Origin: Herbiconiux ginsengi
Lineage (GTDB): Bacteria > Actinomycetota > Actinomycetes > Actinomycetales > Microbacteriaceae
Length of the DNA stretch: 64,000 nucleotides
NCBI RefSeq assembly: GCF_900107435.1
Contig: NZ_FNPZ01000003.1
Coordinates: 1 to 64,000 of the forward strand
Direction: 5' to 3'
Positions 47,059-64,000 of this stretch are shown one piece after another. The position numbers were made by a program, and so were the translations under genes. The notes beneath the pieces are model-generated. The model was not told the DNA's origin and searched no databases. It saw only the letters and a program-made list of their open reading frames with translations. Numbering within the stretch: position 1 is the stretch's first letter; every line of letters starts with the position of its first letter.

Positions 47059-48201
47059 ATGGCCGAGAGCCGACGCCATGCCGAGATCTCCGGCGGGGGT
47101 TTCGCCGGACTCACCGCCGCCGCAGCACTGGCCCGCATGGGCTGGAGCGTGCGCGTGCACGAGCGGGCCCCGGAGCTCCGCACCGAGGGCGCGGGCATCG
47201 TGCTCTGGAACAACAGCCTCCAGGTGCTCGACAAGATCGGCGCCATCCACGACCTGATGTCCGAATCGATGACTCCGCCGGCCTACGAGACGCGCATGAA
47301 CAACGTGATCCAGTCCCAGGAGACGCTCGACGGCATCCGCTGGCGCACGTTGACCCGACCGCACCTCTACGAGACGCTGCTCCTCGCCGCACGCGAGGCG
47401 GGCGTCGAGGTGGTCGCCGGCTCCGAGGTGGTGTCGGCCACCGCCGACGGGCACATCTCCTTCGCCAGCGGCGAGACGGCCGAAGCCGACCTCGTCATCG
47501 GCGCCGACGGCGTGGGCTCGGCCGTGCGCGACTCGCTCGGCGTGCCCCTGAAGCGAGAACGCTCGCGCGACGGCATCACCCGCTTCCTCGTTCCCCGCCG
47601 CAAGGCCGAGTTGCAGGCGCTCGAGCCCGACACCGAGTGGGACAACGTCATCGACTTCTGGAACCTCGACCCCCGGGTGCTGCGCGTGCTCTACACCCCG
47701 GCCAACGACGAGGAGCTCTACATCGCCCTGATGTCGCCGGCCGCCGACGCCGACGGATCGCGCGTGCCGATCGATCTCGACCTCTGGACCTCGATCTTCC
47801 CGCAACTGGCCCCCGTGCTCGAAGTCGCCGCCGAGACCCCCGGCAAGTACTACGGCTACCAGACCACACGCCTCGACTACTGGACCGACGGCAAGGTCGC
47901 CCTGATCGGCGACGCGGCGCACGCGATGTGCCCGGCACTGGCCCAGGGCGCCGGATGCGCGATGCAGAACGCCTGGACGCTGGCGGTCGCCGCCACGGCC
48001 GCCGCCGACGGAGAACTGCCCGAGGCGCTGAAGGAGTGGGAACGCCTCGAGCGTCCGATCACCGACCGCACCCAGGACAAGTCGCAGTGGTACGCCGACA
48101 CCCGCGAGATGGCCAAGGGCAGCCAGTTCACCGGCGACAGCGTCGAAGCCGCTCTCTACAACCCCACCGATCCCAACCGACACGAGGTGCACGCAGCATG
48201 A
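47059..48201 (+). CDS. 3-hydroxy-2-methylpyridine-5-carboxylate oxygenase (FAD monooxygenase)
   Basis: FAD-dependent monooxygenase of 380 residues. It matches the remembered Mesorhizobium ring-opening oxygenase (MHPCO) closely: EISGGGFAGLTAAAALARMG at the N-terminus, GAGIVLWNNSLQVL, DLVIGADGVGSAVRDSLG and LIGDAAHAMCPALAQGAGCA. That enzyme uses NAD(P)H and O2 to hydroxylate and open the pyridine ring, giving 2-(acetamidomethylene)succinate. AGGGGAA precedes ATG 47059. First gene of a seven-gene operon; four-base overlap with the next gene. Confidence 0.88.
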   Translation: MAESRRHAEISGGGFAGLTAAAALARMGWSVRVHERAPELRTEGAGIVLWNNSLQVLDKIGAIHDLMSESMTPPAYETRMNNVIQSQETLDGIRWRTLTRPHLYETLLLAAREAGVEVVAGSEVVSATADGHISFASGETAEADLVIGADGVGSAVRDSLGVPLKRERSRDGITRFLVPRRKAELQALEPDTEWDNVIDFWNLDPRVLRVLYTPANDEELYIALMSPAADADGSRVPIDLDLWTSIFPQLAPVLEVAAETPGKYYGYQTTRLDYWTDGKVALIGDAAHAMCPALAQGAGCAMQNAWTLAVAATAAADGELPEALKEWERLERPITDRTQDKSQWYADTREMAKGSQFTGDSVEAALYNPTDPNRHEVHAA

Positions 48202-48782: not shown

Positions 48783-48805
48783 CCGCCCGAAACCGAGGAG
48801 CCAGC

Positions 48806-49585
48806 GTGACCTACGAGCACACGCAGTACTACGAAGACCAGTCCATCGCGAGCGTGCTCGCCGACGTCGCCCGCGCCCACCGCATCCTGGAGCTGGAGGG
48901 CCACGGCGATATGTCGATGGGCCACCTCTCCTATCGCGACCCGTTCGGGCGCGGGTTGTGGCTGAAGCGCGGCAACCTCGCTCTGAGCGAGGTCGAGGGC
49001 GACGACTTCATCCTCATCGACTTCGACGGAACGGTGCTCGAGGGCACGGGACTCCGCCACCTCGAGTGGCCGCTGCACGCGGAGATCATGAAGGCCCGGC
49101 CCGACGTAAATTTCGTGGGCCATTCGCACGCGCACTACTCGACCGTGCTCGGGGCGTCGGAAGAGACCCTGAAGCCCTACAACAACCACGGCGTGTGGTT
49201 CGCCTACGAAGGCGTGCCCCGCTTCGCCGAGACCAGCCACATCATCACCACGGTTCCCCTCGGCGTCTCGGCGGCGAAGGCGCTCGGCAACGCGCAGGCG
49301 ATCCTGCTGGCCAACCACGGCATCGCCTTCGTGGGCAGCACGGTCGCCGAAGTGACCCTCACCGGTATCTTCCTCGAGAAGGCGGCCCGGTTCCAGGTCG
49401 ACCTCAAGGCATCCGGATTCGTGCCGATCGAACCGGATGCGGAGGAGACCAAGGAGAAATTCGACCGCATCTACCCCGCCAAGGCCCAGCACAACTTCTG
49501 GACCTTCTTCAACCGGCGCCTCGAGCGCGTCGAGGGTGTCTACGGCATCGGCATCTCGCCGATCGCATTGCCGCCCGGCATCTGA
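48806..49585 (+). CDS. 3-hydroxy-2-methylpyridine-4,5-dicarboxylate decarboxylase, class II aldolase-like
   Basis: Metal-dependent class II aldolase/adducin-fold protein of 259 residues. Metal histidines are in FVGHSHAHYS and ILLANHGIAF; the N-terminal GHGDMSMGHLSYRDPFG and HAEIMKARPDV are family features. In the Mesorhizobium B6 pathway the 4-decarboxylase (HMPDdc) belongs to this family, and the neighbouring genes fit that role. GAGGAG precedes GTG 48806, 23 bp after the AA_synth gene. It would act in the cytoplasm, releasing CO2 from the 4-carboxylate. Confidence 0.82.
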   Translation: MTYEHTQYYEDQSIASVLADVARAHRILELEGHGDMSMGHLSYRDPFGRGLWLKRGNLALSEVEGDDFILIDFDGTVLEGTGLRHLEWPLHAEIMKARPDVNFVGHSHAHYSTVLGASEETLKPYNNHGVWFAYEGVPRFAETSHIITTVPLGVSAAKALGNAQAILLANHGIAFVGSTVAEVTLTGIFLEKAARFQVDLKASGFVPIEPDAEETKEKFDRIYPAKAQHNFWTFFNRRLERVEGVYGIGISPIALPPGI

Positions 49586-49644
49586 ACCGGCCCGCTCCGA
49601 GCCATCCGTTCCGCCCCACCCATCACGCGAGAAAGAGTATTGAG

Positions 49645-50580
49645 ATGAGCAGTCTTCCCAGCATCGCCACCGTCATCGGATCGGGCACCATGGGCCCGGG
49701 CATCGCCGCCACCCTCGCTCGTGCCGGCGCGACGGTGCGCCTGTACGACATCTCCGAAGACGCGATCGCCCGCGCCGAGGCCGCCTACGGCGTCGTGCAG
49801 GGAGTGCTCGCCGCCGTCGACTCCCCCTCGGCGCCCGGCGGATCGGTGTCGTTCGGCACCGACCTGGATGCCGCACTGGAGGGCACCGAGCTGATCATCG
49901 AGGCCGTGCCCGAGAAGCTGGAGCTCAAGCAGAAGGTCTTCGCCGACCTCGAGGCCCGCATCGGCGACGAGGTCATCATCGCCACCAACACCTCGGGCAT
50001 CCCGATCACCACCATGGCCGAGAGCCTGCGGGTGCCCGGCCGCCTCATCGGCATGCACTGGTCGAACCCGCCGCACCTCATCCCGATGATCGAGATCATC
50101 CCCGGCCAGGCCACCGACGAGGCGCTCGTGGGGCAACTCGTCGACATCGTGAAGGCGTTCAACTACGTTCCCGTGCTCGAGAAGGAGATCCCCGGATTCG
50201 TGGAGAACCGCGTGCTCTACGCGATCCTCCGCGAGTGCATGGCCCTCCTCGAAGAGGGCATCGTCACCCCGGAAGGCCTCGATGCCTGCGTCAAGTGGGG
50301 GATCGGCTACAAGCTCTCGGTGATCGGCCCGACCCGCCTGCTCGACATGGCCGGTCTCGACATCTATCAGGCCGTTTCGAGCTACCTCAACAAAGATCTC
50401 GATGTGAGCACCGACACCCCCCAGTTCATCAAGGACAAGATCGCCGAGGGCAAGCTCGGCTTCAAGTCGAACGGCGGCATGTACGAGTACGGCGAGGGCG
50501 ACGTCGACGCCAAGCGCAAGGAGATCGTCACGGGCCTCATCGCGGCGCGGAAGACGCTCTCGTCCATCCCGAACGTCTGA
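49645..50580 (+). CDS. 5-formyl-3-hydroxy-2-methylpyridine-4-carboxylate dehydrogenase (HCDH-like)
   Basis: NAD-dependent protein of 311 residues of the 3-hydroxyacyl-CoA dehydrogenase family. Rossmann motif VIGSGTMGPGIAATLARAG; GMHWSNPPHLIPMIEIIPG; PGFVENRVLYAILRECMAL; GIGYKLSVIGPTRLLDMAGL. The NTSGIPIT and HWSNPPH segments match the remembered Mesorhizobium enzyme (FHMPCDH), which oxidises the 5-aldehyde of the pyridine ring to the 4,5-dicarboxylate. ATG 49645; overlaps the hydrolase start by one base. Because no separate 4-pyridoxate dehydrogenase is seen, this enzyme might also oxidise the alcohol; that is speculation. Confidence 0.85.
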   Translation: MSSLPSIATVIGSGTMGPGIAATLARAGATVRLYDISEDAIARAEAAYGVVQGVLAAVDSPSAPGGSVSFGTDLDAALEGTELIIEAVPEKLELKQKVFADLEARIGDEVIIATNTSGIPITTMAESLRVPGRLIGMHWSNPPHLIPMIEIIPGQATDEALVGQLVDIVKAFNYVPVLEKEIPGFVENRVLYAILRECMALLEEGIVTPEGLDACVKWGIGYKLSVIGPTRLLDMAGLDIYQAVSSYLNKDLDVSTDTPQFIKDKIAEGKLGFKSNGGMYEYGEGDVDAKRKEIVTGLIAARKTLSSIPNV

Positions 50581-51419
50581 TGCCGCCGGCCGTCTCCGTC
50601 GAGCCGATCGACGACGGCCTGTTGCGCACCCGGGGCGCCGATGTCGACATCGCGTTCCGGATGCGCGGCTCGGGGCCCGCGGTCGTGCTGCTGCACGGCA
50701 CCTCGGCCAACCACGCGGTGTGGGAGCCGGTGGGCGATGCGCTCGCGGGCCGCGCCACCGTGGTCGCTCTAGATCAGCGCGGACACGGGCGCAGCGACAA
50801 GCCGGCGACCGGGTACACCGGACCGGATTTCGCTGACGACGTCGTGACCGTGCTCGACGCACTCGGCCTCGAGCGCGCGGTCGTCGCCGGCCACTCGCTC
50901 GGCGGCCGCAACGCGTGGCTCGCGGCGGCGCGGCATCCTGACCGGGTGTCGGGTGTCGTCGTGGTCGACTACACGCCGTACGTCGAGGCATCCGTTCTCG
51001 ACGAGTTGGCGGTGCGTGTGGCGGGTGGCTTCCGCGCCTTCGCCGATCAGGCGGAGATCGAGGCGTATCTGCGCGACCGGTACCCGCGCATCCTGCCCGG
51101 CGCCGTCGAAAGGCGGGCGCGGTGGGGCTACCGGCAGCAGGACGACGGCACCTGGGCGCCGTACGCCGACCCGGAGGCGATGCGTCAGCTGATCGAAGGC
51201 TTCCGCACGCCGTGGGACGCCGAGTTCCGGGCCGTTCGTTCGCCCATGACCCACCTCCGAGGCGCCGGGAGTACGATCCTGAGCGAAGCCGCCTGGAGCG
51301 CCGCGATGGCCGACCGGCCCGCGGACCGCTGGGTGGTGGTGGACGAGGCCGACCACTACATCCCCGAAGAATTCCCCGACCTCATCGTCGCCGAGCTCGA
51401 TCGCGTGCTCGGGAACTGA
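50580..51419 (+). CDS. 2-(acetamidomethylene)succinate hydrolase (alpha/beta hydrolase)
   Basis: Hydrolase of 279 residues. Oxyanion region LLHGTSANHAVWEP, nucleophile GHSLGGRN, acid/histidine end VDEADHYIPEEFPDL. The stretches DQRGHGRSDKPATGY and VVVDYTPYVEASVLDEL match the remembered Mesorhizobium AAMS hydrolase, which yields succinate semialdehyde, acetate, ammonia and CO2 and so ends the pathway. Start ATG 50580 overlaps the dehydrogenase stop by one base. Confidence 0.85.
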   Translation: MPPAVSVEPIDDGLLRTRGADVDIAFRMRGSGPAVVLLHGTSANHAVWEPVGDALAGRATVVALDQRGHGRSDKPATGYTGPDFADDVVTVLDALGLERAVVAGHSLGGRNAWLAAARHPDRVSGVVVVDYTPYVEASVLDELAVRVAGGFRAFADQAEIEAYLRDRYPRILPGAVERRARWGYRQQDDGTWAPYADPEAMRQLIEGFRTPWDAEFRAVRSPMTHLRGAGSTILSEAAWSAAMADRPADRWVVVDEADHYIPEEFPDLIVAELDRVLGN

Positions 51420-51433
51420 CCGAAAGGAACACC

Positions 51434-51889: not shown

Positions 51890-51898
51890 CACCGGATC

Positions 51899-52618: not shown

Positions 52619-52626
52619 CCGCCCTC

Positions 52627-52685
52627 TCGACCCGTCACTTCTCGTCGGAAACACGCCCTCTGAGCGACGAGAAGTGACGGGTCGA
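52627..52685. terminator. Perfect 21-bp inverted repeat between convergent operons
   Basis: Arms 52627-52647 and 52665-52685 are exact reverse complements with a 17-bp loop. The arm begins TCGACCCGTCACTTC and ends TCGTCG. It starts nine bases after one operon and ends 17 bases before the other, so a bidirectional terminator is likely. There is no T-run. It may also belong to a dispersed intergenic repeat family. Confidence 0.7.
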
Positions 52686-52701
52686 TGCGGCGGGCGGGAC
52701 G

Positions 52702-54267
52702 TCAGGCGTCGAAGTGGGCCGCGAAGGACTCGGCGATCGCGAGCACCGCGGCGTGCACGGGGCCGGCCGTGATCGACGGGATGACGGAGGCGTCGGCGAC
52801 GTGGAGGTTGTCGAGACCGCGGAAGCGCAAGGCGGGCGTGACCGGCGCCGTGTCGTCGGCGCCCATGGCGAGGGTGCCGACCGGGTGGTGGTGGGTGATC
52901 GCGGCCCGGGCGATGAAGGCGTCGAGCACCGCGGCGTCATCGGCATCGGAGCCGACGCCGGCCAGCCAGCGGGCGGGGAGGATCTCCTCCTCGCGCCAGG
53001 CGGTCAGCCCCGCCGATCCGCCCACCAGGCGGGCGTGCGCGAGCGCCGCCCGGAACGTGGCGCGATCGTGCTCGGTGTCGAGGTAGTTCGGGTCGATCAG
53101 GGGCTCGTCGGCGACATCCGGGCCGGTGATGCGGAGGGAACCACGGCTGGTGGGGTTCGTGACCCCGAAGAGCAGCGTGTAGCCGTCGCCGGGTGGCACG
53201 GCCGCGGCGGCGTCGGGGAACGACTCGGAGACGCTCGGCGCCACGACGCAGCCCACCACGATGTCGGCCGCTCCGGATGTCGCGGAGAGGCTCTCGAGCG
53301 AGAGATACGTCATCGATTCCGACAGCTGCAGTCGGGTCGGCGGCACCGGCCGGCTCGAACGGTAGAGGTTGCCGGCGCCCAGCAGGTGGTCGTGCAGATT
53401 GCGGCCGAGGCCGGGAGACGACAGCACGGGGGAGACCCCCGCGGCAGTGAGCACCTCGGGGTCGCCGACGCCCGAGCGCATGAGCAGCAGCGGATCGCCG
53501 ATCGAGCCACCCGCGAGGATGACGTCGCCCGCCTCGATGATCTCGTCGACCCCGTCGCGCGTGATGGCGACGCCGGTCACCCGTCCGCCGGCGATCACCA
53601 GGCGGTGCACGGTGACCCCCGTGAGCAGGGTGAGGTTCGGTCGCTCGAGCACCGGATCGAGGTAGACGTCGGAGACGGTGACCCGCTGCCCCTCGCGGAT
53701 GGTGAGCGAGTTGGGGGTGGCACCGAGCATCTCGCCGCCGTTGTGATCGGGGATGCGCGGAACGCCGAGCGCCGTCCAGGCGTCGAGGTAGTCGAGCACC
53801 AGCGGGCTGGAGAGGTCGGGCCCGGGGAGCAGCACGGGGAGAGGTCCGTCACCGCCGTGCACCGCATCCGCTCCGCCGGAGAAGGTCTCGGAAGCGCGGA
53901 AGAACGGCAGCAGGCCCTCCCACGACCAGCGCGGGTCGCCGGTCGCCTCGACCCAGCGGTCGAAGTCGGCCCGGCAGCCGCGCATGTGCGCCATGGCATG
54001 CACCAGGCTCGAGCCGCCCGGGCCCTTGCCCCGCGCCCAGTCGAGGCTGCGCCCCGCGAGACCGGGCTGCGGCGTGGTGCGGTAGGCCCAGTCGTAGGAG
54101 CGGCCGTGGATGAACGGCCAGAGTTCTGGCCGGCGCATCTCGGGGTCGGTGACGCGCTCACCGGCCTCCAGCACCGTCACCCGTCGCGAGGGATCGGCGC
54201 TGAGCCGGTTCGCGAGCACGCTGCCGGCGGAGCCCGCCCCGATGATCAGGACGTCGGAGAGCGCCAC
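52702..54267 (-). CDS. Pyridoxine 4-oxidase-like GMC flavoprotein
   Basis: FAD-dependent GMC oxidoreductase of 521 residues. FAD motif VLIIGAGSAGSVLANRLS; GMC stretches WARGKGPGGSSLVHAMAHMR and GLGRNLHDHLLGAGNLY; active-site histidines in AAITHHHPVGTLAMG. Segments such as GRSYDWAYRT, HNGGEMLGATPNSLTIREG, PVPPTRLQLSESMTY and SITAGPVHAAVLAIAE match the remembered Mesorhizobium pyridoxine 4-oxidase better than a general choline-dehydrogenase-like protein. It would convert pyridoxine to pyridoxal with O2. Start is GTG 54267, two bases after the pyridoxal-dehydrogenase stop. The alternative role is 4-pyridoxate dehydrogenase, which is also a GMC protein. Confidence 0.82.
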   Translation of the reverse strand: MALSDVLIIGAGSAGSVLANRLSADPSRRVTVLEAGERVTDPEMRRPELWPFIHGRSYDWAYRTTPQPGLAGRSLDWARGKGPGGSSLVHAMAHMRGCRADFDRWVEATGDPRWSWEGLLPFFRASETFSGGADAVHGGDGPLPVLLPGPDLSSPLVLDYLDAWTALGVPRIPDHNGGEMLGATPNSLTIREGQRVTVSDVYLDPVLERPNLTLLTGVTVHRLVIAGGRVTGVAITRDGVDEIIEAGDVILAGGSIGDPLLLMRSGVGDPEVLTAAGVSPVLSSPGLGRNLHDHLLGAGNLYRSSRPVPPTRLQLSESMTYLSLESLSATSGAADIVVGCVVAPSVSESFPDAAAAVPPGDGYTLLFGVTNPTSRGSLRITGPDVADEPLIDPNYLDTEHDRATFRAALAHARLVGGSAGLTAWREEEILPARWLAGVGSDADDAAVLDAFIARAAITHHHPVGTLAMGADDTAPVTPALRFRGLDNLHVADASVIPSITAGPVHAAVLAIAESFAAHFDA

Positions 54268-54269
54268 GG

Positions 54270-55004
54270 TCAGTTGCGGGTGTGCCCGGCGTCGACCACG
54301 AGCGTCTGCCCGGTGATCCAGCCCGCCTTCTCCGAGGCGAGGAATGCGACGGCGGGGGCGACGTCTTTCGGCAGACCGCGACGGTCGAAGGCCTGCATCG
54401 GCACGACGAATTCGAACCCGGCCTGGTGGGGGCCCGCGAGCACGCCTTCACTCGCGATGATGCCGGGGGCGACCGCGTTGATCGTGATGCCGAGCCTGCC
54501 GAGCTCGCCGGCGAGAGCGCGCACGAGACCGATCGACGCACCCTTGGTGGCCACGTAGTGGGCGCAGTCGGGCGTGCCGGCCACGAAGGTGTTCGAGGCG
54601 ATGTTCACGATGCGGCCGTAACCGGCCTTGCCCATCACGGGGGTGACGGCGTGGGTGACGAGGTAGAGGCCGTCGAGGTTCACCGACATGACCTTGCGCC
54701 ATTCCTCGAAGGTGATGTCGGCCCACGGAGTGAGGGGAACCAGCGCGGCGTTGTTCACCAGAACGTCGATGCGCCCCAGCTCGTCGACGATCTCGCCCAC
54801 CACGGCCGCGACCTGCTCGGGGCTCGACACGTCGAGCGTCTTCGCCACGCCGCCGATCCGCTCGGCGACCTTCGCCGCACCCTCGCCGTTCACGTCGGTG
54901 ACGACGACTTTCAGACCCTCCTCCGCCAGCTCTTCGGCGATGGCGGCACCGATGCCCTGGGCGGCTCCGGTGACGAGGGCGACGCGCTGTTCTGTCTCAG
55001 CCAT
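54270..55004 (-). CDS. Pyridoxal 4-dehydrogenase (SDR)
   Basis: NAD-dependent short-chain dehydrogenase of 244 residues. Cofactor loop TGAAQGIGAAIAEEL; catalytic NIASNTFVAGTPDCAHYVATK with serine, tyrosine and lysine; C-terminal WITGQTLVVDAGHTRN. The segments NNAALVPLTPWADI and VAPGIIASEGVLAGPHQAG follow the remembered Mesorhizobium pyridoxal 4-dehydrogenase closely. It oxidises the hemiacetal form of pyridoxal to 4-pyridoxolactone. Middle gene of the minus-strand operon, 44 bp after the lactonase. Confidence 0.87.
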   Translation of the reverse strand: MAETEQRVALVTGAAQGIGAAIAEELAEEGLKVVVTDVNGEGAAKVAERIGGVAKTLDVSSPEQVAAVVGEIVDELGRIDVLVNNAALVPLTPWADITFEEWRKVMSVNLDGLYLVTHAVTPVMGKAGYGRIVNIASNTFVAGTPDCAHYVATKGASIGLVRALAGELGRLGITINAVAPGIIASEGVLAGPHQAGFEFVVPMQAFDRRGLPKDVAPAVAFLASEKAGWITGQTLVVDAGHTRN

Positions 55005-55048
55005 GGTTCGATTTCTTCTCTCTGATCGGGTGATGTCGTGACGGGCGG

Positions 55049-55807
55049 TCAATTGCCGCCGTAGTACTCCGGGGCGAGCTTCCACTCCTGGAACGACTCG
55101 AGTTCGTGCGACGGGTAGACGTCGGCGTTCTTCGTGCGCGCGAGGTAGTTGAGGCGGCGGATCGCCTCGACCGACTTGGTGGGGTCGAGGTGGAAGCCCG
55201 CGATCCACTCCTTCTCGAGGGTGGTGCGGGTGTATCCGGCGTCGCCGCAGAAGAGCATGCTCTTCTCGTTCTCCAGCTCCACCAGCAGCGAGTAGTGGCC
55301 GATGGTGTGGCCCGGCGTCTCGAACAGCCAGACACCCGGCGCCACTTCGTAGTCGCCGGAGATGGGCTTGTAGGTCACGCCCGGGTGGTCGAAGGTGAGG
55401 TCGGAGTAGCCGAGGCGCTCGAAGGGCTCCGGCACTTTCGCGTGCCGCAACTCCTCCTTGTGCACGAGGGTGGTGGCCTTGGTGAGGTGCTTGTTGCCGC
55501 CCACGTGATCGAAGTGGAAGTGCGAGTTCACCACGATGTCGACGTCGTCGGGCGTGAAACCGCAGCGGGCGAGCTGGGCCGGGATGGTCTGCTCCGCGGT
55601 CTGCTCGGGCAGCTCGAAGGGCAGCACCTTGTTGACGTGGTCGAGGTCGAAGCCGGTGTCGTAGAGGATCAGGGCGTCGGGATGCTCGATCAGCACGCTG
55701 TACACCGGGAACCGCACCGGGTTGCCCGCGTTGATGTGCCAGTGCACGTCGGATTCGTCGATGACGAGCGTTCCGCCATCGAGCAGGTAGACCTTGGGGT
55801 CCGTCAT
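55049..55807 (-). CDS. 4-pyridoxolactonase (metallo-beta-lactamase fold)
   Basis: Zinc lactonase of 252 residues in the AHL-lactonase branch of the MBL superfamily. HxHxDH motif is VNSHFHFDHVGGN, further ligands in ETPGHTIGHYSLL and LFCGDAGYT. VYLLDGGTLVID and RFPVYSVLIEHPDAL match the remembered Mesorhizobium 4-pyridoxolactonase, which hydrolyses 4-pyridoxolactone to 4-pyridoxate. ATG 55807 is chosen over 55843 because of this conserved start. First gene of its operon, behind a region with three TTCTCA/TGAGAA half-sites. Confidence 0.88.
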   Translation of the reverse strand: MTDPKVYLLDGGTLVIDESDVHWHINAGNPVRFPVYSVLIEHPDALILYDTGFDLDHVNKVLPFELPEQTAEQTIPAQLARCGFTPDDVDIVVNSHFHFDHVGGNKHLTKATTLVHKEELRHAKVPEPFERLGYSDLTFDHPGVTYKPISGDYEVAPGVWLFETPGHTIGHYSLLVELENEKSMLFCGDAGYTRTTLEKEWIAGFHLDPTKSVEAIRRLNYLARTKNADVYPSHELESFQEWKLAPEYYGGN

Positions 55808-55826: not shown

Positions 55827-55875
55827 TTCTCATATGGCGCCAATTAACGATCACGTTATGAGAAGCAATTTCTCA
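55827..55875. promoter_or_regulatory. TTCTCATA / TGAGAA-N5-TTCTCA operator cluster
   Basis: TTCTCATA (55827-55834), ATGAGAA (55858-55864) and TTCTCA (55870-55875). The last two form the 17-bp palindrome TGAGAA-GCAAT-TTCTCA, of the size IclR-family proteins bind. It precedes the lactonase operon. Confidence 0.6.
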
Positions 55876-55917: not shown

Positions 55918-56313
55918 TCAGCCGGCCGTGACCGCGGGGAAGTCGGGGAAGGTCGGTGCGAAGTCGTAGTGCGCCCACCGGTAGCAGTGGTCGAGCTGCG
56001 GGTCTTTCGCGAAGTCGCCGATGCAGGTCGCGTCTTGATAGCGGTCGCCGCTGTCGTCGGTGTAGTGCACGCGGCACAGCACCTTCCACACGGTGTCGGC
56101 GACCGACGGATCGTCGACCAGGTGGTCGGAGGGCAGCCAGCACTCCGTGGACGTGATGGCGTCGGCGGGCACGTTCGAGGTGGGGCCGGCCACCGCCGCG
56201 AGGGTGGTGAGGGCGGCGGCATCCTTCTGCGAGAGGGGAGCGGCCCCCGCGCATCCGCTGAGCGCGACGGCCAGGGTGAGAGCGACGAGAGGGAAATATG
56301 CGCGTCGGGGCAT
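55918..56313 (-). CDS. Hypothetical lipoprotein
   Basis: Exported protein of 131 residues with a signal peptide and lipobox ALSGC (Cys23). The mature part has four cysteines at about WLPSD, VLCRVHY, ATCIGDF and DHCYRW that could form disulfides, and a Trp/Tyr-rich C-terminus. AAGGAG precedes ATG 56313. It lies between the lactonase operon (same direction, 110 bp ahead) and the divergent BMP gene, so it may share the B6 regulation, but nothing in it shows a role. Confidence 0.75.
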   Translation of the reverse strand: MPRRAYFPLVALTLAVALSGCAGAAPLSQKDAAALTTLAAVAGPTSNVPADAITSTECWLPSDHLVDDPSVADTVWKVLCRVHYTDDSGDRYQDATCIGDFAKDPQLDHCYRWAHYDFAPTFPDFPAVTAG

Positions 56314-56394
56314 TGGGGTCTCCTTTTCCCTCATCGTCGGGGGCCCGTGTTTCCGGAGTGTAAAACCTGCAGATTCGTCGTTGACGCTGCCTTC

Positions 56395-56440
56395 GTTCTT
56401 CTCATACTGTATCGCTACCCCCGCACATTGTGAGAAGAAC
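56395..56440. promoter_or_regulatory. Inverted repeat GTTCTTCTCA / TGAGAAGAAC
   Basis: Perfect 10-bp arms at 56395-56404 and 56431-56440, between the lipoprotein gene and the BMP transporter gene. TTCTCATA (56399-56406) is identical to the site at 55827. Confidence 0.6.
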
Positions 56441-56498
56441 GTACCGAATTGATAACAACGAAGTTCGGGGGCCCTTACTCGAGAGGAAATCTTCGGCA

Positions 56499-57596
56499 AT
56501 GTTCACATTCAGCAGCCGCGGCAACCAGCGCCGCGTTATCACCCGGGTCGCCGTGCTGGCGACCACGGGCGCTCTAGCAGTCAGTCTCGCAGCGTGCTCC
56601 GGCGGTCGCGGCGGAGACGAATCCACCGGTGGCGCGACCACGTCGGCCGGAACCACCGTCAGCAAGTTCGCTCTCGTCGCACCCGAGAACGAGTCGGACT
56701 TCGGCTGGAACCAGGCCGGTCTCTTGGGCGCCGACCAGGCGGCCACCGAGCTCGGCATCGAGGTCACCCTCGTTCCGGATGCCGGCTGGGACAACACCGA
56801 GACCGTGCTCGGCCAGGTCGCCGACGGCGGGGCGCAGTTCATCATCGCTCACGCATCGGGCTACGGCGTGGCCGCCACCAGCGTGGCCGACGCGAAGAAC
56901 GTGCCCATCCTCATCCAGGACGCCGGAGAGAACATCCCCGGCAAGATCGCGGTCACCAAGACCCAGGCGCAGGAGGGCGGCTACCTCGCCGGCATCGCCG
57001 CGGCGATGACGACGAAGAGCAAGACGATCGGCATCGTGGTGTCGGCCGACGACCTCAACTGGTTCAAGATGTCGGCCGGATTCGCGGAGGGCGTCTACAG
57101 CGTCGACCCGTCGATCACCGTGCTCTACACCTCGGTCGGCCCGGCTGCCTACGCGGATGCCGCGGGCGGCAAGACCGCGACCGAGCAGCTCATCGCCTCG
57201 GGCGCCGACGTCATCTTCGGCATGGGCGACGGTGCCACGCACGGCTACCTGCAGGCCGTCGAGGCCGCACCCGGTGTGAAGTACATCGCCGACATCGGCG
57301 ACGTCACCTCGGGCCTAAGCGACCCGAGCGTGCTTCTCACCTCGGTGCTCTGGAACTACGGCCCCACCTATGTGCAGGCGATCAAGGACGTCGAAGCAGG
57401 CACCTTCGGTGAGGCGGGCTACGAGCTGACCACGGAGAACGGCGGGCTCTCGTTGCAGGAGACCGACCAGTTGACCCCGGAGATGCAGACCGCGATCGAC
57501 ACCGCCAAGGCAGGCATCGCCGACGGATCGATCGTGCCCACCCCGGCCACGACGCCCGACGAGGTCGCCAAGGTCATCGCCGCCAAGGGCGCCTGA
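56499..57596 (+). CDS. BMP-family (PnrA-like) ABC transporter binding lipoprotein
   Basis: Solute-binding lipoprotein of 365 residues (lipobox SLAAC, Cys28) of the basic-membrane-protein/PnrA family, which normally binds purine nucleosides. Family stretches: DFGWNQAGLLGADQAATELG, ITKTQ-like VTKTQAQEGGYLAGIAAAM, FGMGDGATHGYLQAVE. GAGAGGAAA precedes ATG 56499. First gene of an operon with the ATPase, two permeases and pyridoxamine-pyruvate aminotransferase, so a B6 vitamer is the probable ligand. Nucleoside import is the alternative. Confidence 0.9.
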   Translation: MFTFSSRGNQRRVITRVAVLATTGALAVSLAACSGGRGGDESTGGATTSAGTTVSKFALVAPENESDFGWNQAGLLGADQAATELGIEVTLVPDAGWDNTETVLGQVADGGAQFIIAHASGYGVAATSVADAKNVPILIQDAGENIPGKIAVTKTQAQEGGYLAGIAAAMTTKSKTIGIVVSADDLNWFKMSAGFAEGVYSVDPSITVLYTSVGPAAYADAAGGKTATEQLIASGADVIFGMGDGATHGYLQAVEAAPGVKYIADIGDVTSGLSDPSVLLTSVLWNYGPTYVQAIKDVEAGTFGEAGYELTTENGGLSLQETDQLTPEMQTAIDTAKAGIADGSIVPTPATTPDEVAKVIAAKGA

Positions 57597-57677
57597 CCCC
57601 ACTCGATCAGACAGGACTCGGTGCCGGGCGATCCGGTTCGGCACCGAGTCCGATCCACTCACGCCGAGGAGCCCTTC

Positions 57678-59279
57678 TTGACACCATCGACCGCGCCGGA
57701 CGTGATCTCGCTCCGCGACATCACCAAGGCCTTTCCCGGGGTCGTCGCCAACGATCACATCTCGCTCGACATCGTGAGCGGCCAGGTGCACTGCCTGCTC
57801 GGCGAGAACGGCGCGGGCAAGTCGACCCTGATCAGCATCCTCGCCGGCATGCAGCAGCCCGACGCCGGCACGATCTCGATCAACGGCGTGCCCGCCGCGA
57901 TCACCTCGCCGAAAGCCGCGGTCGACTACGGCATCGGCGTGGTGCACCAGCACTCCACGCTGGTGCCCGCGTTCACCGTGCTCGAGAACCTCATGCTCGG
58001 CGAGACCGGCCTGATGATGCAGAAGAAGCGCGCGGCGGAACGGCTCGACGAGCTCTCCGAGCTGCTCGGCGCCCAGATCGATCCGCATGCCCTCGCCGCC
58101 GACCTCGGTCTCGGTCAGCAGCAACAGGTCGAGATCGCGAAGGCGATCTGGAAGGGCAGCCGGTTGCTCGTGCTCGACGAGCCGACCTCGATGCTCACAC
58201 CGCAAGCCATCGAGAACCTCTCGGAGAGCGTCGCCCGCGTCAAGGCGCAGGGGCTCGCCGTGGTGTTCATCACCCACAAGCTGCGCGAGGCCTACGCCAT
58301 GGGCGACTGCGTCACCGTGCTCCGCGGCGGCCGCAACGTGGGCCACATCTCGGTGGAGGAGCTCGCGACCTACAGCGAACAGCAGGCGCAGGACGCCATC
58401 CTCCGGGCGATGTTCGGCGACGACCTGAAGACGGTCGGCGCCGAGGATGCGGCCGAACTCGCCGGCGCGACCGAGTCGACGCGGGAGATCCGCAGCATCG
58501 ACCTGGCCACCCGCCCGGTGCGCCTGGAACTGCTCGGCGTCTCCAGCCACGGGCACGGCCGCGACGTGGAGGTCGACGACGTCGCCCTCCAGGTGCACGA
58601 GGGCGAGATCCTGGGGGTGGCCGGCATCGACGGGCACGGCCAGGGGGCGCTCGCCGAGGTCGTCGCCGGCCAGCGGTCGGCGTCATCCGGAACCGTGCGC
58701 TTCGACGGCAAAGACGTGACGAGACTCGGCGTGCGGGGCCGCCAGCAGCTCGGCTTGCGCTACGTGACCGACGACCGGCTGCACGAAGGAACGGTCGGGT
58801 CGATGTCGGTCGCCCTCAACCTCGTGATCAAACGGATCGGCCAGCGACCGTTCTGGCGGTTCGGCCAGATCCAGAACAAGGCCGTCGACCAGGAGGCCGC
58901 TCGGCTGATCGCGGAGTACGACATCCGTACCCCCTCGCCCGCCACGCGTGCCGGCACGCTCTCCGGCGGCAACATCCAGAAGATCCTGCTCGCCCGCGAA
59001 CTCACGCACGGCGCGCGACTCGTGGTGGTGAACAAGCCCACCTACGGGCTCGACCTGAAGACCGTGCAGCTCGTGCGGGAGATCCTCATCGACTTCGCCT
59101 CGAACGGCGGATCGGTGCTGCTGCTGTCGACCGATCTCGACGAACTCGTCGAGCTCTCGCACCGCATCGAGGTCATCTCGCGCGGCCGGATCGTGGGCAG
59201 CGTGACGAACGACGGGCCGGGAACGGCGGAGAAGGTGGGCCACTACATGACCGGTGCGATCGAGGGTGTGCAGGCATGA
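57678..59279 (+). CDS. Twin-domain ABC ATPase, nucleoside/BMP importer type
   Basis: ATP-binding protein of 533 residues with two fused ABC domains as in RbsA/YufO-like importers. Domain 1: Walker A GENGAGKST, VVHQHSTLVPAFTVLENL, LGLGQQQQVEIAKAIWKG, Walker B LLVLDEPTSMLT. Domain 2: GVAGIDGHGQGALAEVVAG replaces a normal Walker A, with LSGGNIQKILLARELTH; its ATPase site is degenerate as usual in this family. No ATG or GTG fits; TTG 57678 lies behind GAGGAG at normal distance and is the likely start. Four-base overlap with the first permease. Confidence 0.9.
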   Translation: MTPSTAPDVISLRDITKAFPGVVANDHISLDIVSGQVHCLLGENGAGKSTLISILAGMQQPDAGTISINGVPAAITSPKAAVDYGIGVVHQHSTLVPAFTVLENLMLGETGLMMQKKRAAERLDELSELLGAQIDPHALAADLGLGQQQQVEIAKAIWKGSRLLVLDEPTSMLTPQAIENLSESVARVKAQGLAVVFITHKLREAYAMGDCVTVLRGGRNVGHISVEELATYSEQQAQDAILRAMFGDDLKTVGAEDAAELAGATESTREIRSIDLATRPVRLELLGVSSHGHGRDVEVDDVALQVHEGEILGVAGIDGHGQGALAEVVAGQRSASSGTVRFDGKDVTRLGVRGRQQLGLRYVTDDRLHEGTVGSMSVALNLVIKRIGQRPFWRFGQIQNKAVDQEAARLIAEYDIRTPSPATRAGTLSGGNIQKILLARELTHGARLVVVNKPTYGLDLKTVQLVREILIDFASNGGSVLLLSTDLDELVELSHRIEVISRGRIVGSVTNDGPGTAEKVGHYMTGAIEGVQA

Positions 59280-60391
59280 TCACCGAGCACAGCAGGGCAC
59301 GCAACATCGTCGACGGCCTGGTGCGGTCGATCCTGCCGGTCATCCTGGCGCTCATCGTCGCCGGATTCATCATGCTCGCCATGGGCAGCAATCCGCTCGA
59401 CTTCTTCGCCGGCGTCTGGACCTACGGCATCACCGGCGGCAACTGGCAGCGCAGTCTCGTGCTCATGGCGCCGCTCGTGATCGTTGCGGTCGGTCTCATC
59501 GTCGCCTTCCGCGGGCAGCTCTGGAACCTCGGCTACAACGGGCAATACCTGCTCGGCGCGGTGGTGGCCTCCGGGGTCGGCCCGTACCTGTTCGCGGCTC
59601 TGCCGGCCTGGCTCGCCACGCTCATCATCTTCGTGGGCGCCATCCTCGTCGGGGCGGTGTGGTCGCTCATCCCGGCCATTCTCAAGGCCCGCTACGGCAC
59701 GAACGAGATCATCACCTCGCTGGTGATGTCGTTCATCGCGGTGGGCATCGTGAACCTCCTCATCAAGGGGCCGTTCAAAGACCCGAACACGCCGATGCCG
59801 CAGACGGCGGTGATCCCCGACGACCAGCTGCTGCCCTACATCCCGGGCACCGAGATCCACGTCGGATTCGTGATCGCCATCGTGCTCGCGCTGGTGGCCC
59901 AGTTCGTGCTCAGCCGCACCTCGTTCGGCCTGCGCATGGACATCTTCGGCGCCAGCCCGAAGGCGGCCCGACACGTGGGCATCAACTCCACCTGGATGGT
60001 CATCCTGCTCTTTGCGCTTTCGAGCGGGCTGATCGCGTTCGCCGGATCGATCGACGTGCTGGGGCAGTACACCTATCAGCGGGCGAACTGGGATCCGCAC
60101 TACGGCGACGCCGTGATGCCCTTCGTCTTCCTGGCGCGGCTCAGTCCGCTCGCCGCCATCCCGCTCGTCGCGTTCTACGCCATCCTCGCCACGGGAGGCA
60201 CGCTGGCCGCGCAGCAGGCGGGGCTGAACGTCGACTTCCTGCTGGTGATCGTGGGCCTCATCCTCATCTTCATGACCATCACCGAGTACGTGGGCGAACG
60301 CCGGCGGCTCGGTCAGAGTTATCTGCCGCCGGGATTGCGGCGCACCCTGGTGCGGCCTTTCGACGGAATGCGCGGAAGGAAGTCCTCATGA
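59276..60391 (+). CDS. ABC importer permease 1, BMP/nucleoside type
   Basis: Membrane protein of 371 residues, about ten helices, BPD_transp_2 family. Diagnostic: FRGQLWNLGYNGQYLLGA near residue 80 and RYGTNEIITSLVMSFIAVG. The binding-protein, ATPase and second permease genes flank it, with four-base overlaps on both sides. Confidence 0.92.
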   Translation: MITEHSRARNIVDGLVRSILPVILALIVAGFIMLAMGSNPLDFFAGVWTYGITGGNWQRSLVLMAPLVIVAVGLIVAFRGQLWNLGYNGQYLLGAVVASGVGPYLFAALPAWLATLIIFVGAILVGAVWSLIPAILKARYGTNEIITSLVMSFIAVGIVNLLIKGPFKDPNTPMPQTAVIPDDQLLPYIPGTEIHVGFVIAIVLALVAQFVLSRTSFGLRMDIFGASPKAARHVGINSTWMVILLFALSSGLIAFAGSIDVLGQYTYQRANWDPHYGDAVMPFVFLARLSPLAAIPLVAFYAILATGGTLAAQQAGLNVDFLLVIVGLILIFMTITEYVGERRRLGQSYLPPGLRRTLVRPFDGMRGRKSS

Positions 60392-61320
60392 GCGTTCTCT
60401 CTGCCGCCTTCGTCACCGTCTTCATCGCCACGGTCATCGCCCAGGCCATGCCGCTCCTGCTCGCCTCGGTGGGAGAGACCATCGGCGAACAGGCCGGAGT
60501 GCTCAACCTCGGTATCGAGGGCGTGATGCTCATCGGTGCGTTCTCGGGCTTCGTGGTGACCCTCGCCACCGGCAACTTCTGGCTCGGGATGCTCGCCGGA
60601 GCCGTCGGCGGGGTGATCGCCAATCTGGCGATGCTGGTGCTGAACGTCTGGCTCGGGCTCAACCAGATCGTCATCGGTCTCGCCATCACGCTCATCGGCG
60701 AGGGCCTCACGAGCGTGCTCTACCTGCAGAACTACTCCAAATCGAGCACCAGTCTCGGCACGGCGCCGGAGCTGCACATCCCGTTCCTGGCCGACATCCC
60801 CGTGGTGGGGCCGGCGATCTTCCAGCAGTCGGGCATCTTCTGGGTCTCGCTCCTCCTGGCGATCGCGGTGGGGTTCTTCCTCGCCAAGACCAACTGGGGG
60901 CTCTCGATCCGCTCGGCCGGGCAGAAGCCGTCGTCGCTGGATGCCGCGGGCGGCAGCGTGGTGAAGATCCGGTCGCAGGCCGTCATCCTCGGCGGCGCGT
61001 TCGTGGGCTTCGGCGGCGCCTACCTCGCCGAACTCACCACGGCGACCTTCACCCCGTTCATCACGAACGGCCTGGGCTTCATCGCGATCGTCATCACGAT
61101 GCTCTCGCGTGGCCGGATCGTGTTCGTGGTGATCACCTCGTTCGTCTACGGCCTCGCCGTGGCGATCGGCCCGGCGCTGCAGGTGCTCGGCTTCGCGGTG
61201 CCGGCCGACGTCATCAAGATGCTGCCGTTCATCGTGGTCATCCTGACGCTCATCATCTTCGCGCGCAGCTCGGTGGTTCCACCGGCTCTCGGCGCTCCGT
61301 ACACCCGAGGCGCGCGCTGA
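60388..61320 (+). CDS. ABC importer permease 2, BMP/nucleoside type
   Basis: Second membrane subunit, 310 residues, BPD_transp_2 family. Diagnostic: SVGETIGEQAGVLNLGIEGVML and LSIRSAGQKPSSLDAAGGSV, then FGGAYLAELTTATFTPFITNG. AAGGAAG precedes ATG 60388; overlaps permease 1 by four bases. Ends 26 bp before the aminotransferase gene, so all five genes are one operon. Confidence 0.92.
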   Translation: MSVLSAAFVTVFIATVIAQAMPLLLASVGETIGEQAGVLNLGIEGVMLIGAFSGFVVTLATGNFWLGMLAGAVGGVIANLAMLVLNVWLGLNQIVIGLAITLIGEGLTSVLYLQNYSKSSTSLGTAPELHIPFLADIPVVGPAIFQQSGIFWVSLLLAIAVGFFLAKTNWGLSIRSAGQKPSSLDAAGGSVVKIRSQAVILGGAFVGFGGAYLAELTTATFTPFITNGLGFIAIVITMLSRGRIVFVVITSFVYGLAVAIGPALQVLGFAVPADVIKMLPFIVVILTLIIFARSSVVPPALGAPYTRGAR

Positions 61321-61346
61321 CGCGGGCCCGAACAGAAAGGCACTCC

Positions 61347-62507
61347 ATGGCACACCCCGACTTCACGCTCTCGGCCGGGCCGGTCACCGTCACCGCCCGC
61401 ACGCTCGCGGGCCTCGGCTCGCCGATCCTCTACCACTACGACCCCGAATTCCTCGCGACGTTCCGGCGCACGCAGGGCAAGGTGGGGCAGATGTTCCAGA
61501 CCGACAACGACATCATCCTCATGCAGGGTGAGGCCATCGTCGGTCTCGAGGGCGCCTTGCGCTCGCTGATCACGCCCGGGATGCACGTGCTGAACCTCGT
61601 GCAGGGCGTGTTCGGCAAGGGCACCGGCTACTGGATCGCCGACTTCGGCGCCGTGCTGCACGAGATCGAGGTCGGCTACGACGACGCGGTCTCGCCGGCA
61701 CAGGTCGAGGAGTACCTCGACGCGCATCCGGAGATCCAGATGGTGTGCCTGGTGGCCTCCGAGACCCCGTCGGGCACGGTGACGGATGTCGCGGCGATCG
61801 GCCCGATGTGCCGGGACCGCGGCATCCTGACCTACATCGACACTGTCTCGGGCGTGCTCGGCATGCCCTGGAAGACCGACGAGTGGGGCCTGGACCTCTG
61901 CGTCGCCGGCGCTCAGAAATGCCTCGGGGGCCCTCCTGGCGTGGCGCTCATCTCGGTGAGCCAGAAGGCGTGGGACGTGATGTACGCGAACCCGGCCGCC
62001 CCGCGTGACTCCTATCTCTCGCTGATCGACTGGAAGGAGAAGTGGCTCGGTGAGGGCCGCTTTCCGTACACGCCGTCGGTGAGCGACATGAACGGGCTCG
62101 AAGCGGCGCTCGACCAGGCGCTGGAGGAGGGGATCGACGCGGTCGTCGCGCGTCACGAGGCCGCCGCCGCCGTGACCCGCGCCGGCGCCCGAGCCATGGG
62201 TCTCGAGCTCTGGGCGAAGAGCGAGGAGATCGCGTCGGCCTGCGTCACCTCCATCCGCCTGCCCGACGACATCGACAACGCCGTGGTGCGCGACCACGCC
62301 CGCGAGGTCTACGGGGTGATGCTCTCGCACGGGCAGGGTGCCGGCAACCTCGTGCGGCTCTCGCACATGGGCCCGACAGCCGGTGGCCTCCACTCGGTGG
62401 TGGGCCTCGCCGCGCTCGGCCGCACCCTCGCCGATCTGGGCATGTCCGTCGACATCGGAGCGGGACTGGAGGCGGCGCTCGCGCTGCTCAGTACCCAGCG
62501 GCGGTGA
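61347..62507 (+). CDS. ppaT: Pyridoxamine-pyruvate aminotransferase
   Basis: Class V (fold-type I) aminotransferase of 386 residues. The reactive lysine is Lys191 in VAGAQKCLGGPPG. The protein follows the remembered Mesorhizobium PPAT along its length: LSAGPVTVTARTLAGLG, ASETPSGTVTDVAAIGPM, YANPAAPRDSYLSLIDW, PYTPSVSDMNGLEAALDQAL and RLSHMGPTAGGLHSVVGLAA. PPAT uses pyridoxamine as substrate, not cofactor, giving pyridoxal and alanine from pyruvate. AGAAAGG precedes ATG 61347. Being in the transporter operon, it links import to catabolism. Confidence 0.9.
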   Translation: MAHPDFTLSAGPVTVTARTLAGLGSPILYHYDPEFLATFRRTQGKVGQMFQTDNDIILMQGEAIVGLEGALRSLITPGMHVLNLVQGVFGKGTGYWIADFGAVLHEIEVGYDDAVSPAQVEEYLDAHPEIQMVCLVASETPSGTVTDVAAIGPMCRDRGILTYIDTVSGVLGMPWKTDEWGLDLCVAGAQKCLGGPPGVALISVSQKAWDVMYANPAAPRDSYLSLIDWKEKWLGEGRFPYTPSVSDMNGLEAALDQALEEGIDAVVARHEAAAAVTRAGARAMGLELWAKSEEIASACVTSIRLPDDIDNAVVRDHAREVYGVMLSHGQGAGNLVRLSHMGPTAGGLHSVVGLAALGRTLADLGMSVDIGAGLEAALALLSTQRR

Positions 62508-62550: not shown

Positions 62551-63381
62551 GTGGTTCAGATGAGCACACGACAGCCGACAGAGGGCCGGGAGACCGGCTC
62601 CGCCGAAGACGGAGACGCAGTGACCGCGCAGCCGCAGCGCACCAAAGGCGTGGACAGCGCGCGCCGGGCGCTCCAGATCCTGCTCCAATTCAACGAGACC
62701 ACGCCGGAACTGACGGTCGAGAACCTCATCGAGGATCACGACATCTCGGTGCCGAGCGCCTACCGCTACATCTCGCTGTTACGGGAGATGGACCTGATCG
62801 AAGAGCGGGAGAAGGGGCGGTTCGTGCTCTCCCCGCAGGTGCTGCGGCTGGCGCGCGCGGCGGAGGCGTCGTTCGACTACCGGGCGCAGGCGCAGCCCAT
62901 CCTCAACCGCCTGGCGGAAGTGACGGGGGAGACCGCGCTCTATCTGCGCCGGGTCAACGACTCGGCCGTGTGTCTGGCGATCGCCGAGTCGGATCATCCG
63001 ATCTCCATCTCGTTCCAGCCGGGCAACCTGATGCCGCTGCACAGCGGTGCGGCGGCGAAGCTGCTGCTCAGCGACCTCTCGCCGGCGAAGCTCGCCCAGT
63101 ACTTCCAGCGGGTCGGGCCGACGATGACGAAGGCGGCGCGCGCGACCCTCGAGACCGATCTCGACGCCATCCGCACGACGGGCTACGCCGAGAGCGCGGG
63201 CGAGGTCGATCAGGGTGTGTGGGCGAGCGCTGCGGGCATCCACGTGCGCGGCCGGCTCGTCGGAGCTGTAACGGTGGTGGCGCCCGCCTACCGTCTGTCG
63301 GAGGAGCACCGCGACACGATCGCCGACGCGGTGCGCTCGGGTGCGCGCGACCTGGAGGCTGCGCTGGCCGCACGGGGCTGA
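62551..63381 (+). CDS. IclR family regulator, probable regulator of B6 catabolism
   Basis: Regulator of 276 residues. After a polar 35-residue tail, the N-terminal winged helix reads GVDSARRALQILLQFNE and LIEDHDISVPSAYRYISLLR. The C-terminal IclR effector domain (about 105-270) shows ALYLRRVNDSAVCLAIAES, PLHSGAAAKLLLS and the late VWASAAGIHVRGRLVGAVTVVAP. It follows the aminotransferase by 43 bp but has its own -10 box. It is the only regulator in the B6 locus, so the TGAGAA/TTCTCA palindromes are its likely targets, with a pyridine intermediate as effector. Confidence 0.9.
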   Translation: MVQMSTRQPTEGRETGSAEDGDAVTAQPQRTKGVDSARRALQILLQFNETTPELTVENLIEDHDISVPSAYRYISLLREMDLIEEREKGRFVLSPQVLRLARAAEASFDYRAQAQPILNRLAEVTGETALYLRRVNDSAVCLAIAESDHPISISFQPGNLMPLHSGAAAKLLLSDLSPAKLAQYFQRVGPTMTKAARATLETDLDAIRTTGYAESAGEVDQGVWASAAGIHVRGRLVGAVTVVAPAYRLSEEHRDTIADAVRSGARDLEAALAARG

Positions 63382-63399: not shown

Positions 63400-64000
63400 A
63401 TGAGCACGCTGCTCTCGCTGAACGTCGGGCTGCCCCAGGATGTGCCGTGGCAGGGCGAGACGGTGCACACGGGCATCGACAAGGCTCCGGTCGACGGTGC
63501 GCGGATGGTGCGCCGCCTCAACGTCGACGGCGACGGGCAGGGCGACCTGGCGGGGCATGGTGGCGAGCAGCGCGCCGTGTTCGTCTACCAGAAGCAGTCG
63601 TACGAGCACTGGGCGGAGTTCCTCGGGCGCGACGATCTCACCCCGGGTGCCTTCGGCGAGAACTTCACCGTCGATGGGATGCCCGACGACGAGGTGTGCA
63701 TCGGTGACCGCTATCGCATCGGCGACGCCGAGTTCGAAGTCACCCAGCCCCGCGTCACCTGCTTCCGGGTGGGCCTGCGGCTGAACGACACGCGGATGCC
63801 TGCGCTGCTCGTCGGTCATCGCCGGCCGGGCTTCTATTTCCGCGTCATCACCGAGGGCGAGGTGCGTGCCGGCGACACCATCGTGAAGACGCGCACCGGC
63901 CCGCACGGATTGACGGTGGCGCAGACGGACGCCCTGCTCTATCTGCCCGACCGCTCCGAAGACGACCTCCGTAAGGCGGTCGACATCCCGGCACTCAGCC
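63400..64000 (+). CDS. MOSC domain protein, N-terminal part
   Basis: Partial gene, open at the right edge (200 residues visible). MOSC domain proteins carry sulfur on a conserved cysteine for molybdenum-cofactor-related chemistry. Visible: GDGQGDLAGHGGEQRAVFVY, FGENFTVDGM, IGDRYRIGDAEFEVTQPR, and the conserved cysteine in RVTCFRVGLRL. The YiiM-type N-terminus is present. A long form with a C-terminal FAD/ferredoxin reductase is possible since the frame continues past the domain (TDALLYLPDRS). Confidence 0.88.
   Translation, partial: MSTLLSLNVGLPQDVPWQGETVHTGIDKAPVDGARMVRRLNVDGDGQGDLAGHGGEQRAVFVYQKQSYEHWAEFLGRDDLTPGAFGENFTVDGMPDDEVCIGDRYRIGDAEFEVTQPRVTCFRVGLRLNDTRMPALLVGHRRPGFYFRVITEGEVRAGDTIVKTRTGPHGLTVAQTDALLYLPDRSEDDLRKAVDIPALS

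Follow-up and report, generated by a model that had tools for sequence, protein, structure and literature searches.

We analysed a 64,000-nucleotide stretch of the Herbiconiux ginsengi genome (assembly GCF_900107435.1, contig NZ_FNPZ01000003.1, positions 1 to 64,000; hereafter the window) around an operon at 56499-62507 whose first gene encodes a binding protein of the BMP family. A previous interpretation made from the letters of the window (the sequence-only reading) had placed a BMP lipoprotein, an ATPase, two permeases and then a pyridoxamine-pyruvate aminotransferase (PPAT) here, and all five lie where it put them:

56499..57596, + strand: BMP-family substrate-binding lipoprotein of 365 amino acids (NCBIfam NF047927, 446.7 bits against a cut-off of 400; Pfam Bmp, PF02608, E 2.3e-20)
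57678..59279, + strand: ATPase with two ATP-binding cassette (ABC) domains (NF047930, 805 bits against a cut-off of 670; PF00005 in two stretches)
59276..60391, + strand: permease subunit 2 (NF047929, 491 bits against a cut-off of 400; PF02653)
60388..61320, + strand: permease subunit 1 (NF047928, 336 bits, under the cut-off of 465; PF02653)
61347..62507, + strand: PPAT, the entry enzyme for pyridoxamine (best PDB match 2z9u, E 3.7e-102; NF046070, 414 bits, under the cut-off of 600)

The BMP protein has the lipobox LAAC (C33), and the start of the ATPase is read as a TTG preceded by GAGGAG. Pfam recognizes two ABC_tran stretches in the ATPase and BPD_transp_2 in both permeases. The five genes likely form one operon, as had been proposed, but the proposed fusion by overlaps applies to half of the junctions: the ATPase gene and the permease gene after it, and the two permease genes, share 4 nt each (ATGA), and the other two junctions are gaps of 81 nt between the BMP and ATPase genes and 26 nt between permease and PPAT. 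The closest named relatives of the BMP protein come from Microbacteriaceae (Herbiconiux, Salinibacterium, Microbacterium and Microterricola, 78-85% identity), and six further BMP proteins are encoded in the same genome.

Searches of NCBIfam, Pfam and PDB show that 47059-55807, a region on which the sequence-only reading is silent, carries homologues of most enzymes of bacterial vitamin B6 degradation, a pathway known from Mesorhizobium loti (summarized in PMC6253932, in part):

47059..48201, + strand: 2-methyl-3-hydroxypyridine-5-carboxylate oxygenase-like protein (best PDB match 3alj, E 7.9e-121)
48803..49585, + strand, start approximate: class II aldolase family protein, a possible pyridine dicarboxylate decarboxylase (PF00596; 2z7b at E 1.5e-15, a weak match and the fifth of 7)
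49645..50580, + strand: 5-formyl-3-hydroxy-2-methylpyridine-4-carboxylate (FHMPC) dehydrogenase-like protein (NF042925, 385 bits, under the cut-off of 500)
50574..51419, + strand, start approximate: (acetamidomethylene)succinate hydrolase-like protein (best PDB match 3kxp, E 3.9e-58)
52702..54267, - strand: GMC oxidoreductase, probably a pyridoxine 4-oxidase (best PDB match 4ha6, pyridoxine 4-oxidase, E 3.2e-165)
54270..55004, - strand: pyridoxal 4-dehydrogenase, SDR type (NF047923, 387.6 bits against a cut-off of 325)
55049..55807, - strand, start codon chosen by us: 4-pyridoxolactonase (NF047925, 430.5 bits against a cut-off of 325)

The two enzymes of the 4-pyridoxolactone route, pyridoxal 4-dehydrogenase and 4-pyridoxolactonase, are thus both over their NCBIfam cut-offs. 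No 4-pyridoxate dehydrogenase was identified; there is one GMC protein among the scanned proteins and its nearest PDB entry is pyridoxine 4-oxidase, but it may be the 4-pyridoxate dehydrogenase instead.

The operon is very likely to encode a BMP-type ABC transporter that imports non-phosphorylated vitamers of vitamin B6, as the sequence-only reading had suggested. This prediction is supported by the co-occurrence of the transporter with PPAT and 4-pyridoxolactonase, by an operator-like element that the transporter and lactonase promoters share and that is unique to them in the genome, by the loss of nucleoside contacts in the binding protein, and by one genome (G656) that has the transporter and lacks PdxS and PdxJ. 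The idea is itself an existing database prediction, which here gains additional support and one new candidate component: NCBIfam holds equivalog models for four subunits named 'putative B6 ABC transporter' (ABC_BMP_B6, NF047927; ABC_ATP_B6, NF047930; ABC_B6_perm_1, NF047928; ABC_B6_perm_2, NF047929), and the window's subunits match all four, three over the curated cut-offs and permease 1 below its own, although the models themselves are labelled 'putative'. Among the matches listed by title and abstract opening in the openly licensed literature, no published test of a BMP-type B6 transporter was found, which is not proof of absence.

Proteins over the NF047927 cut-off are rare, occurring in 2 of 296 genomes of a class sample and 4 of 396 of a phylum sample, with the window's genome counted in both. 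Within the family, a B6-type BMP protein is found at E<=1e-60 in 18 of 249 genomes (17 over the cut-off), and all 12 genomes with PPAT at E<=1e-80 are among those 18. 4-pyridoxolactonase is present at E<=1e-30 in 21 of the 22 BMP-bearing genomes tested (20 over the cut-off). PPAT lies within the fetched stretch at 11 of 12 loci in one set and 10 of 17 in another, plasmids of Rhizobium and Ochrobactrum included, whose BMP proteins show about 40% identity. Only 5 of 72,556 plasmid records match the BMP protein at E<=1e-20 (two Thioclava, two Rhizobium and one Ochrobactrum); four of these five loci were examined, and in the two Rhizobium loci and the Ochrobactrum locus PPAT ends 2.5-3 kb upstream of the BMP gene. 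The Rhizobium plasmid stretches (L047 1-11125 and L048 138-11091) also place the B6-type BMP and PPAT genes near genes annotated as 4-hydroxyphenylacetate 3-hydroxylase-type, amidase and flavin reductase genes, and L047 has an annotated 2,5-dihydroxypyridine dioxygenase.

The promoter regions of the transporter and lactonase genes carry the same element, and a regulator gene follows the operon:

55827..55864, no strand assigned: operator-like element, second copy, upstream of the lactonase gene
56399..56436, no strand assigned: operator-like element TTCTCATA-N24-TGAGAA in the BMP promoter region, inside the inverted repeat 56394-56441
62560..63381, + strand: IclR-type regulator, presumed regulator of the cluster, a role inferred (PF01614, E 6e-25; PF09339, E 2e-6)

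With one mismatch or fewer allowed, the 4.85-Mb genome contains exactly two sites for this pattern, both of them exact, and a reversed-pattern control gave 0. As a 38-bp two-arm pattern it gave 4 matches with both strands counted, a number reached in 0 of 100 shuffles. An alternative 17-bp palindrome reading of the lactonase operator was dropped for the two-arm form, as 16 of 100 shuffles matched it just as often. We then looked upstream of the same genes in relatives, covering 22 of 30 loci (all but L046-L049, L052, L072, L080 and L085) with shuffles that kept base content only. At two mismatches or fewer, the element is found upstream of BMP in 18 of 22 and of lactonase in 16 of 20 regions, the window included; it was not found at this tolerance before BMP in G656, L050, L051 or L086, and the best site in G656 has 3 mismatches, equalled in 1 of 200 shuffles. 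Upstream of the oxygenase gene the element is weak (3 mismatches of 14 in the window). The arms appear to overlap likely -10 boxes, as expected for a repressor site, and the adjacent IclR protein is a probable binder.

We next considered the binding pocket. In BmpA and its relatives, Phe27 and Phe176 stack the base, while Phe151, Val224, Asp225 and Lys242 surround the nucleoside (PMC13325309, in part). Alignment of the window's BMP protein with Lbp and pneumococcal PnrA puts Trp70, Tyr218, Met191, Asp265, Ile266 and Trp285 at these positions. The protein shares with the nucleoside importers PnrA and BmpA-D the Bmp domain, aromatic residues at the two stacking positions and the conserved Asp67 and Asn71, and differs from them in the residues counted below. 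Counts were made over distinct rows, 28 B6-type and 36 other BMP, after the exact repeats L072 and L080 had been dropped and L007, L008 and L009 left out as repeats of the window and L038:

Position 27 (stacking): Trp in 23 and Tyr in 5 of 28 B6-type rows; Phe in 36/36 others
Position 176 (stacking): Tyr in 28/28; Phe in 36/36
Position 151: Met in 25 and Gln in 3 of 28; Phe in 34/36
Position 225: Ile in 28/28; Asp in 34/36
Position 242: Trp in 28/28; Lys in 34/36

The stacking positions are thus aromatic in every B6-type row and never Phe. The nucleoside contacts of PnrA, which the sequence-only reading had named as a comparison to make, are replaced, leaving its proposal standing. In a tree built without the paralogue L003, a branch with 100/100 support separates the B6-type rows from the others.

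These residues bear directly on whether the operon encodes a nucleoside importer like the characterized BMP systems, which would stand in a B6 cluster either fortuitously or to scavenge nucleosides. Membership of Pfam Bmp agrees with such a role, and the nearest solved structures include the nucleoside binders Lbp and pneumococcal PnrA. However, the equivalents of BmpA Phe151, Asp225 and Lys242 are replaced in all 28 distinct B6-type rows, whereas among the genome's other six BMP proteins Asp is kept at 225 in 4/6 and Lys at 242 in 4/6 (both in 3; two differ at one position and one at both). Nor was a nucleoside-metabolism gene recognized among the scanned neighbour proteins, the open reading frames of the left 46 kb having been scanned in part; the earlier statement that none is near holds with one reservation, a MOSC-type protein at 63400-64000 whose best NCBIfam match, 6-hydroxyaminopurine reductase, scores 96 bits, far under the cut-off of 294. 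The operator-like element shared with the lactonase gene also speaks against this role. We consider it very improbable and, judged by its residues, the transporter is not a nucleoside importer.

The enzymes by which vitamers would enter the pathway vary among loci, while the transporter stays. Five loci (L074, L076, L077, L079 and L081) have the transporter with the GMC oxidase and without PPAT, which is absent from those genomes too; three (L075, L083 and L086) have it with PPAT and without a GMC gene within the ~18-20 kb fetched; further loci of the family have both. The transporter therefore probably accepts more than one non-phosphorylated vitamer, or else the pyridoxal to which they lead. 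Two links between pocket residues and entry enzymes, Asp265 with the GMC oxidase (14/15 distinct rows with GMC, 0/11 without, 2 undetermined) and Tyr70 with GMC in the absence of PPAT (5/5 such loci, against 0/2 other PPAT-less rows), cannot be called significant because the tree needs so few changes (GMC 2, Asp265 2, PPAT 3, Tyr70 1).

The transporter also tends to accompany loss of PdxS. PdxS (SOR_SNZ) is missing from 6 of 18 BMP-bearing and 11 of 231 other family genomes (p 5e-4), and from 4 of 15 against 6 of 210 when only near-complete genomes are counted (p 0.002). G656, the only one of the 22 BMP-bearing genomes without lactonase, also lacks PPAT, PdxS and PdxJ. The window's pathway proteins have no match in its 20-kb stretch, where Pfam shows unrelated neighbours, and a kinase ~29 kb away has pyridoxine/pyridoxal/pyridoxamine kinase as its best NCBIfam match, under the cut-off. 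This gene content suggests import of a usable vitamer. Two other genomes without PdxS, G664 and G852, have PdxY over its cut-off. The window's own genome has PdxS, so the role of the transporter there is presumably catabolic.

The same observations bear on whether the transporter imports some other substituted pyridine or a B6 derivative, such as a pyridoxine glycoside or 4-pyridoxic acid, the vitamers being secondary. The cluster should itself degrade 4-pyridoxate; the Thioclava transporter stands without PPAT beside amidases and an HpaB-type monooxygenase-like protein (under cut-off); and the window's later-pathway proteins (oxygenase, decarboxylase, hydrolase and FHMPC dehydrogenase) have no match in the three Rhizobium/Ochrobactrum stretches, the Rhizobium plasmid loci possibly representing a different B6 or pyridine degradation route. 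Against this, the transporter is kept under each entry-enzyme pattern, G656 without lactonase, PPAT, PdxS and PdxJ fits a usable vitamer best, and PdxS loss is enriched with the transporter. We regard a derivative as an unlikely principal substrate.

If the transporter is an importer of non-phosphorylated vitamers, the cleft of the lipoprotein would receive pyridoxine, pyridoxamine and possibly pyridoxal. Trp70 and Tyr218 would probably stack on either side of the pyridine ring, with Trp285 at the site of the ribose-contacting Lys of nucleoside binders. The two permeases and the two-domain ATPase would then carry the vitamer inward to the cytoplasm, where PPAT would convert pyridoxamine, and the GMC oxidase pyridoxine, to pyridoxal. 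Pyridoxal 4-dehydrogenase and 4-pyridoxolactonase would yield 4-pyridoxate for degradation by the remaining cluster, and the promoters of transporter and lactonase would be turned on together through their common operator, to which the IclR protein probably binds. A pump from a family known for nucleosides would thus very probably have been retuned for vitamin B6 import beside genes that degrade B6.

Several points weigh against this interpretation. Permease 1 and PPAT score under their NCBIfam cut-offs; PPAT exceeds its cut-off in 0 of 249 family genomes, so that the calls rest on the lower threshold, which also catches one control, the archaeon Methanocaldococcus jannaschii. In Thioclava (L046), PPAT was not found in a 29-kb stretch, though the BMP protein scores 417 bits on the B6 model. 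The Fisher value for PPAT among BMP-bearing genomes (2e-16), like the others, overstates independence because whole clusters have been passed down among these 18 related genomes; the PdxS test likewise rests on few non-independent events, two of the losses falling within the window's genus. None of the five genomes tested has PdxJ, not even the window's, so its absence says little and PdxS alone is informative. Both promoters had been viewed before the operator pattern was drawn, and the weight therefore lies on the pattern being absent from the rest of the genome and present in relatives. In the pocket, BmpA numbers were placed on Lbp by motif, with BmpA itself outside the alignment and Phe151 marked uncertain, and the register at Asp225 is uncertain by one residue (the window has Asp265 and Asp268). 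Some outside rows drew long-branch warnings in the tree, and membership of the B6-type clade is partly circular, most rows having been found with NF047927. AlphaFold, given five BMP sequences (the window and L039-L042), produced an unusable model with a mean predicted local distance difference test (pLDDT) score of 51, and the pocket residues therefore rest on sequence alignment.

Little is known of the genes by which bacteria take up free vitamin B6. B6 transporters have been described as still under investigation (PMC8427247, in part). Putative B6 transporters of PdxR-type regulons are given in PMC5320631, and the term 'bmp' is absent from the available part of that paper. The energy-coupling factor (ECF) transporter HmpT also serves B6 uptake, with pyridoxamine reported as its preferred substrate (PMC4860826, in part), as does P5PA of Actinobacillus, which binds pyridoxal 5'-phosphate and has been likened to AfuA (PMC8427247, in part). 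The operon described here also resembles, in description only, the riboflavin importer RfuABCD of spirochaetes. We take COG1744, the group of its binding protein RfuA, to be the Bmp group. RfuA binds a vitamin, riboflavin where B6 is proposed here, and its predicted partners are an ATPase and two other subunits (PMC4418817, in part). Because of this published riboflavin binder and the NCBIfam models, the sequence-only reading overstated its case in calling B6 a new substrate class for the family.

Between the lactonase and BMP genes lies one further gene of the locus:

55918..56313, - strand: small lipoprotein of 131 amino acids with four invariant Cys

Searches with this lipoprotein gave nothing close to cut-off in Pfam (best E 0.016) or NCBIfam (best E 0.08), nothing in PDB up to E 10 and nothing among plasmids at E 1e-3, and it was not found in the distant-locus stretches L046-L052. 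At E<=1e-6 it is present in 18 of 249 family genomes, exactly the 18 that bear the transporter, G656 included, where its gene is directly upstream of BMP; 12 of these genomes have PPAT and 17 have lactonase. This match of the two lists does not represent 18 independent events, as the clusters are inherited. An alignment of 19 sequences keeps four Cys throughout, in addition to the Cys presumed to carry the lipid. The gene mostly lies between lactonase and BMP, is nearer lactonase in G801, G853 and G700, and is on the lactonase contig in G665. The protein may be tied to either lactonase or transporter, and a tie to the transporter is favoured because G656 has the lipoprotein and no lactonase. 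Its AlphaFold model (the window and L039-L042 proteins) was too poor to use (mean pLDDT 49).

What is new here is the shared operator, the pocket switch and a four-cysteine lipoprotein found in the same 18 of 249 genomes as the transporter. A fuller account, to which we give about an even chance, is a BMP branch dedicated to B6, with a pocket rebuilt for several vitamers and the four-cysteine lipoprotein as standing partner, serving mostly IclR-switched catabolism and, in genomes without B6 synthesis, salvage. If the prediction is correct, non-phosphorylated vitamers would have an importer that depends on a binding protein and has Trp70, Tyr218 and Trp285 in its pocket. The locus would then also offer a defined operator-like element, an orphan lipoprotein, a candidate role in salvage and an example of a nucleoside pocket converted to a pyridine pocket.

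We also compared the PPAT proteins, for which M. loti PPAT (2z9u) is the nearest solved homologue. The window's enzyme keeps the catalytic Lys and the residues that we take, in number and role, to be Glu68 and Arg345 of M. loti PPAT, and has Gln at the position presumed to be Arg336; its substrate preference may differ given this replacement. The latter position is Gln also in L039, L040, L070, L075 and L086, Tyr in L050, and Arg in L047 and L049. A second PPAT-like gene lies near the same cluster in L039 (18855-20006, 61% to the window's PPAT), and genome G679 also has two PPAT matches (G679:C1:3036819-3037907). Loci L082, L085, L051 and L052 are cut at contig ends.

Three further proteins of the window's cluster recur in many B6 clusters: an AA_synth protein (48198-48782), a YbhB-like protein (51428-51889) and an amidohydrolase (Amidohydro_2, 51899-52618), the last of which also adjoins BMP in L050 and L052. 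Farther away, at 7312-8847, the window encodes a protein that matches ADP-specific phosphofructokinase/glucokinase (PF04587, E 6e-26), an enzyme unusual in an actinobacterium.

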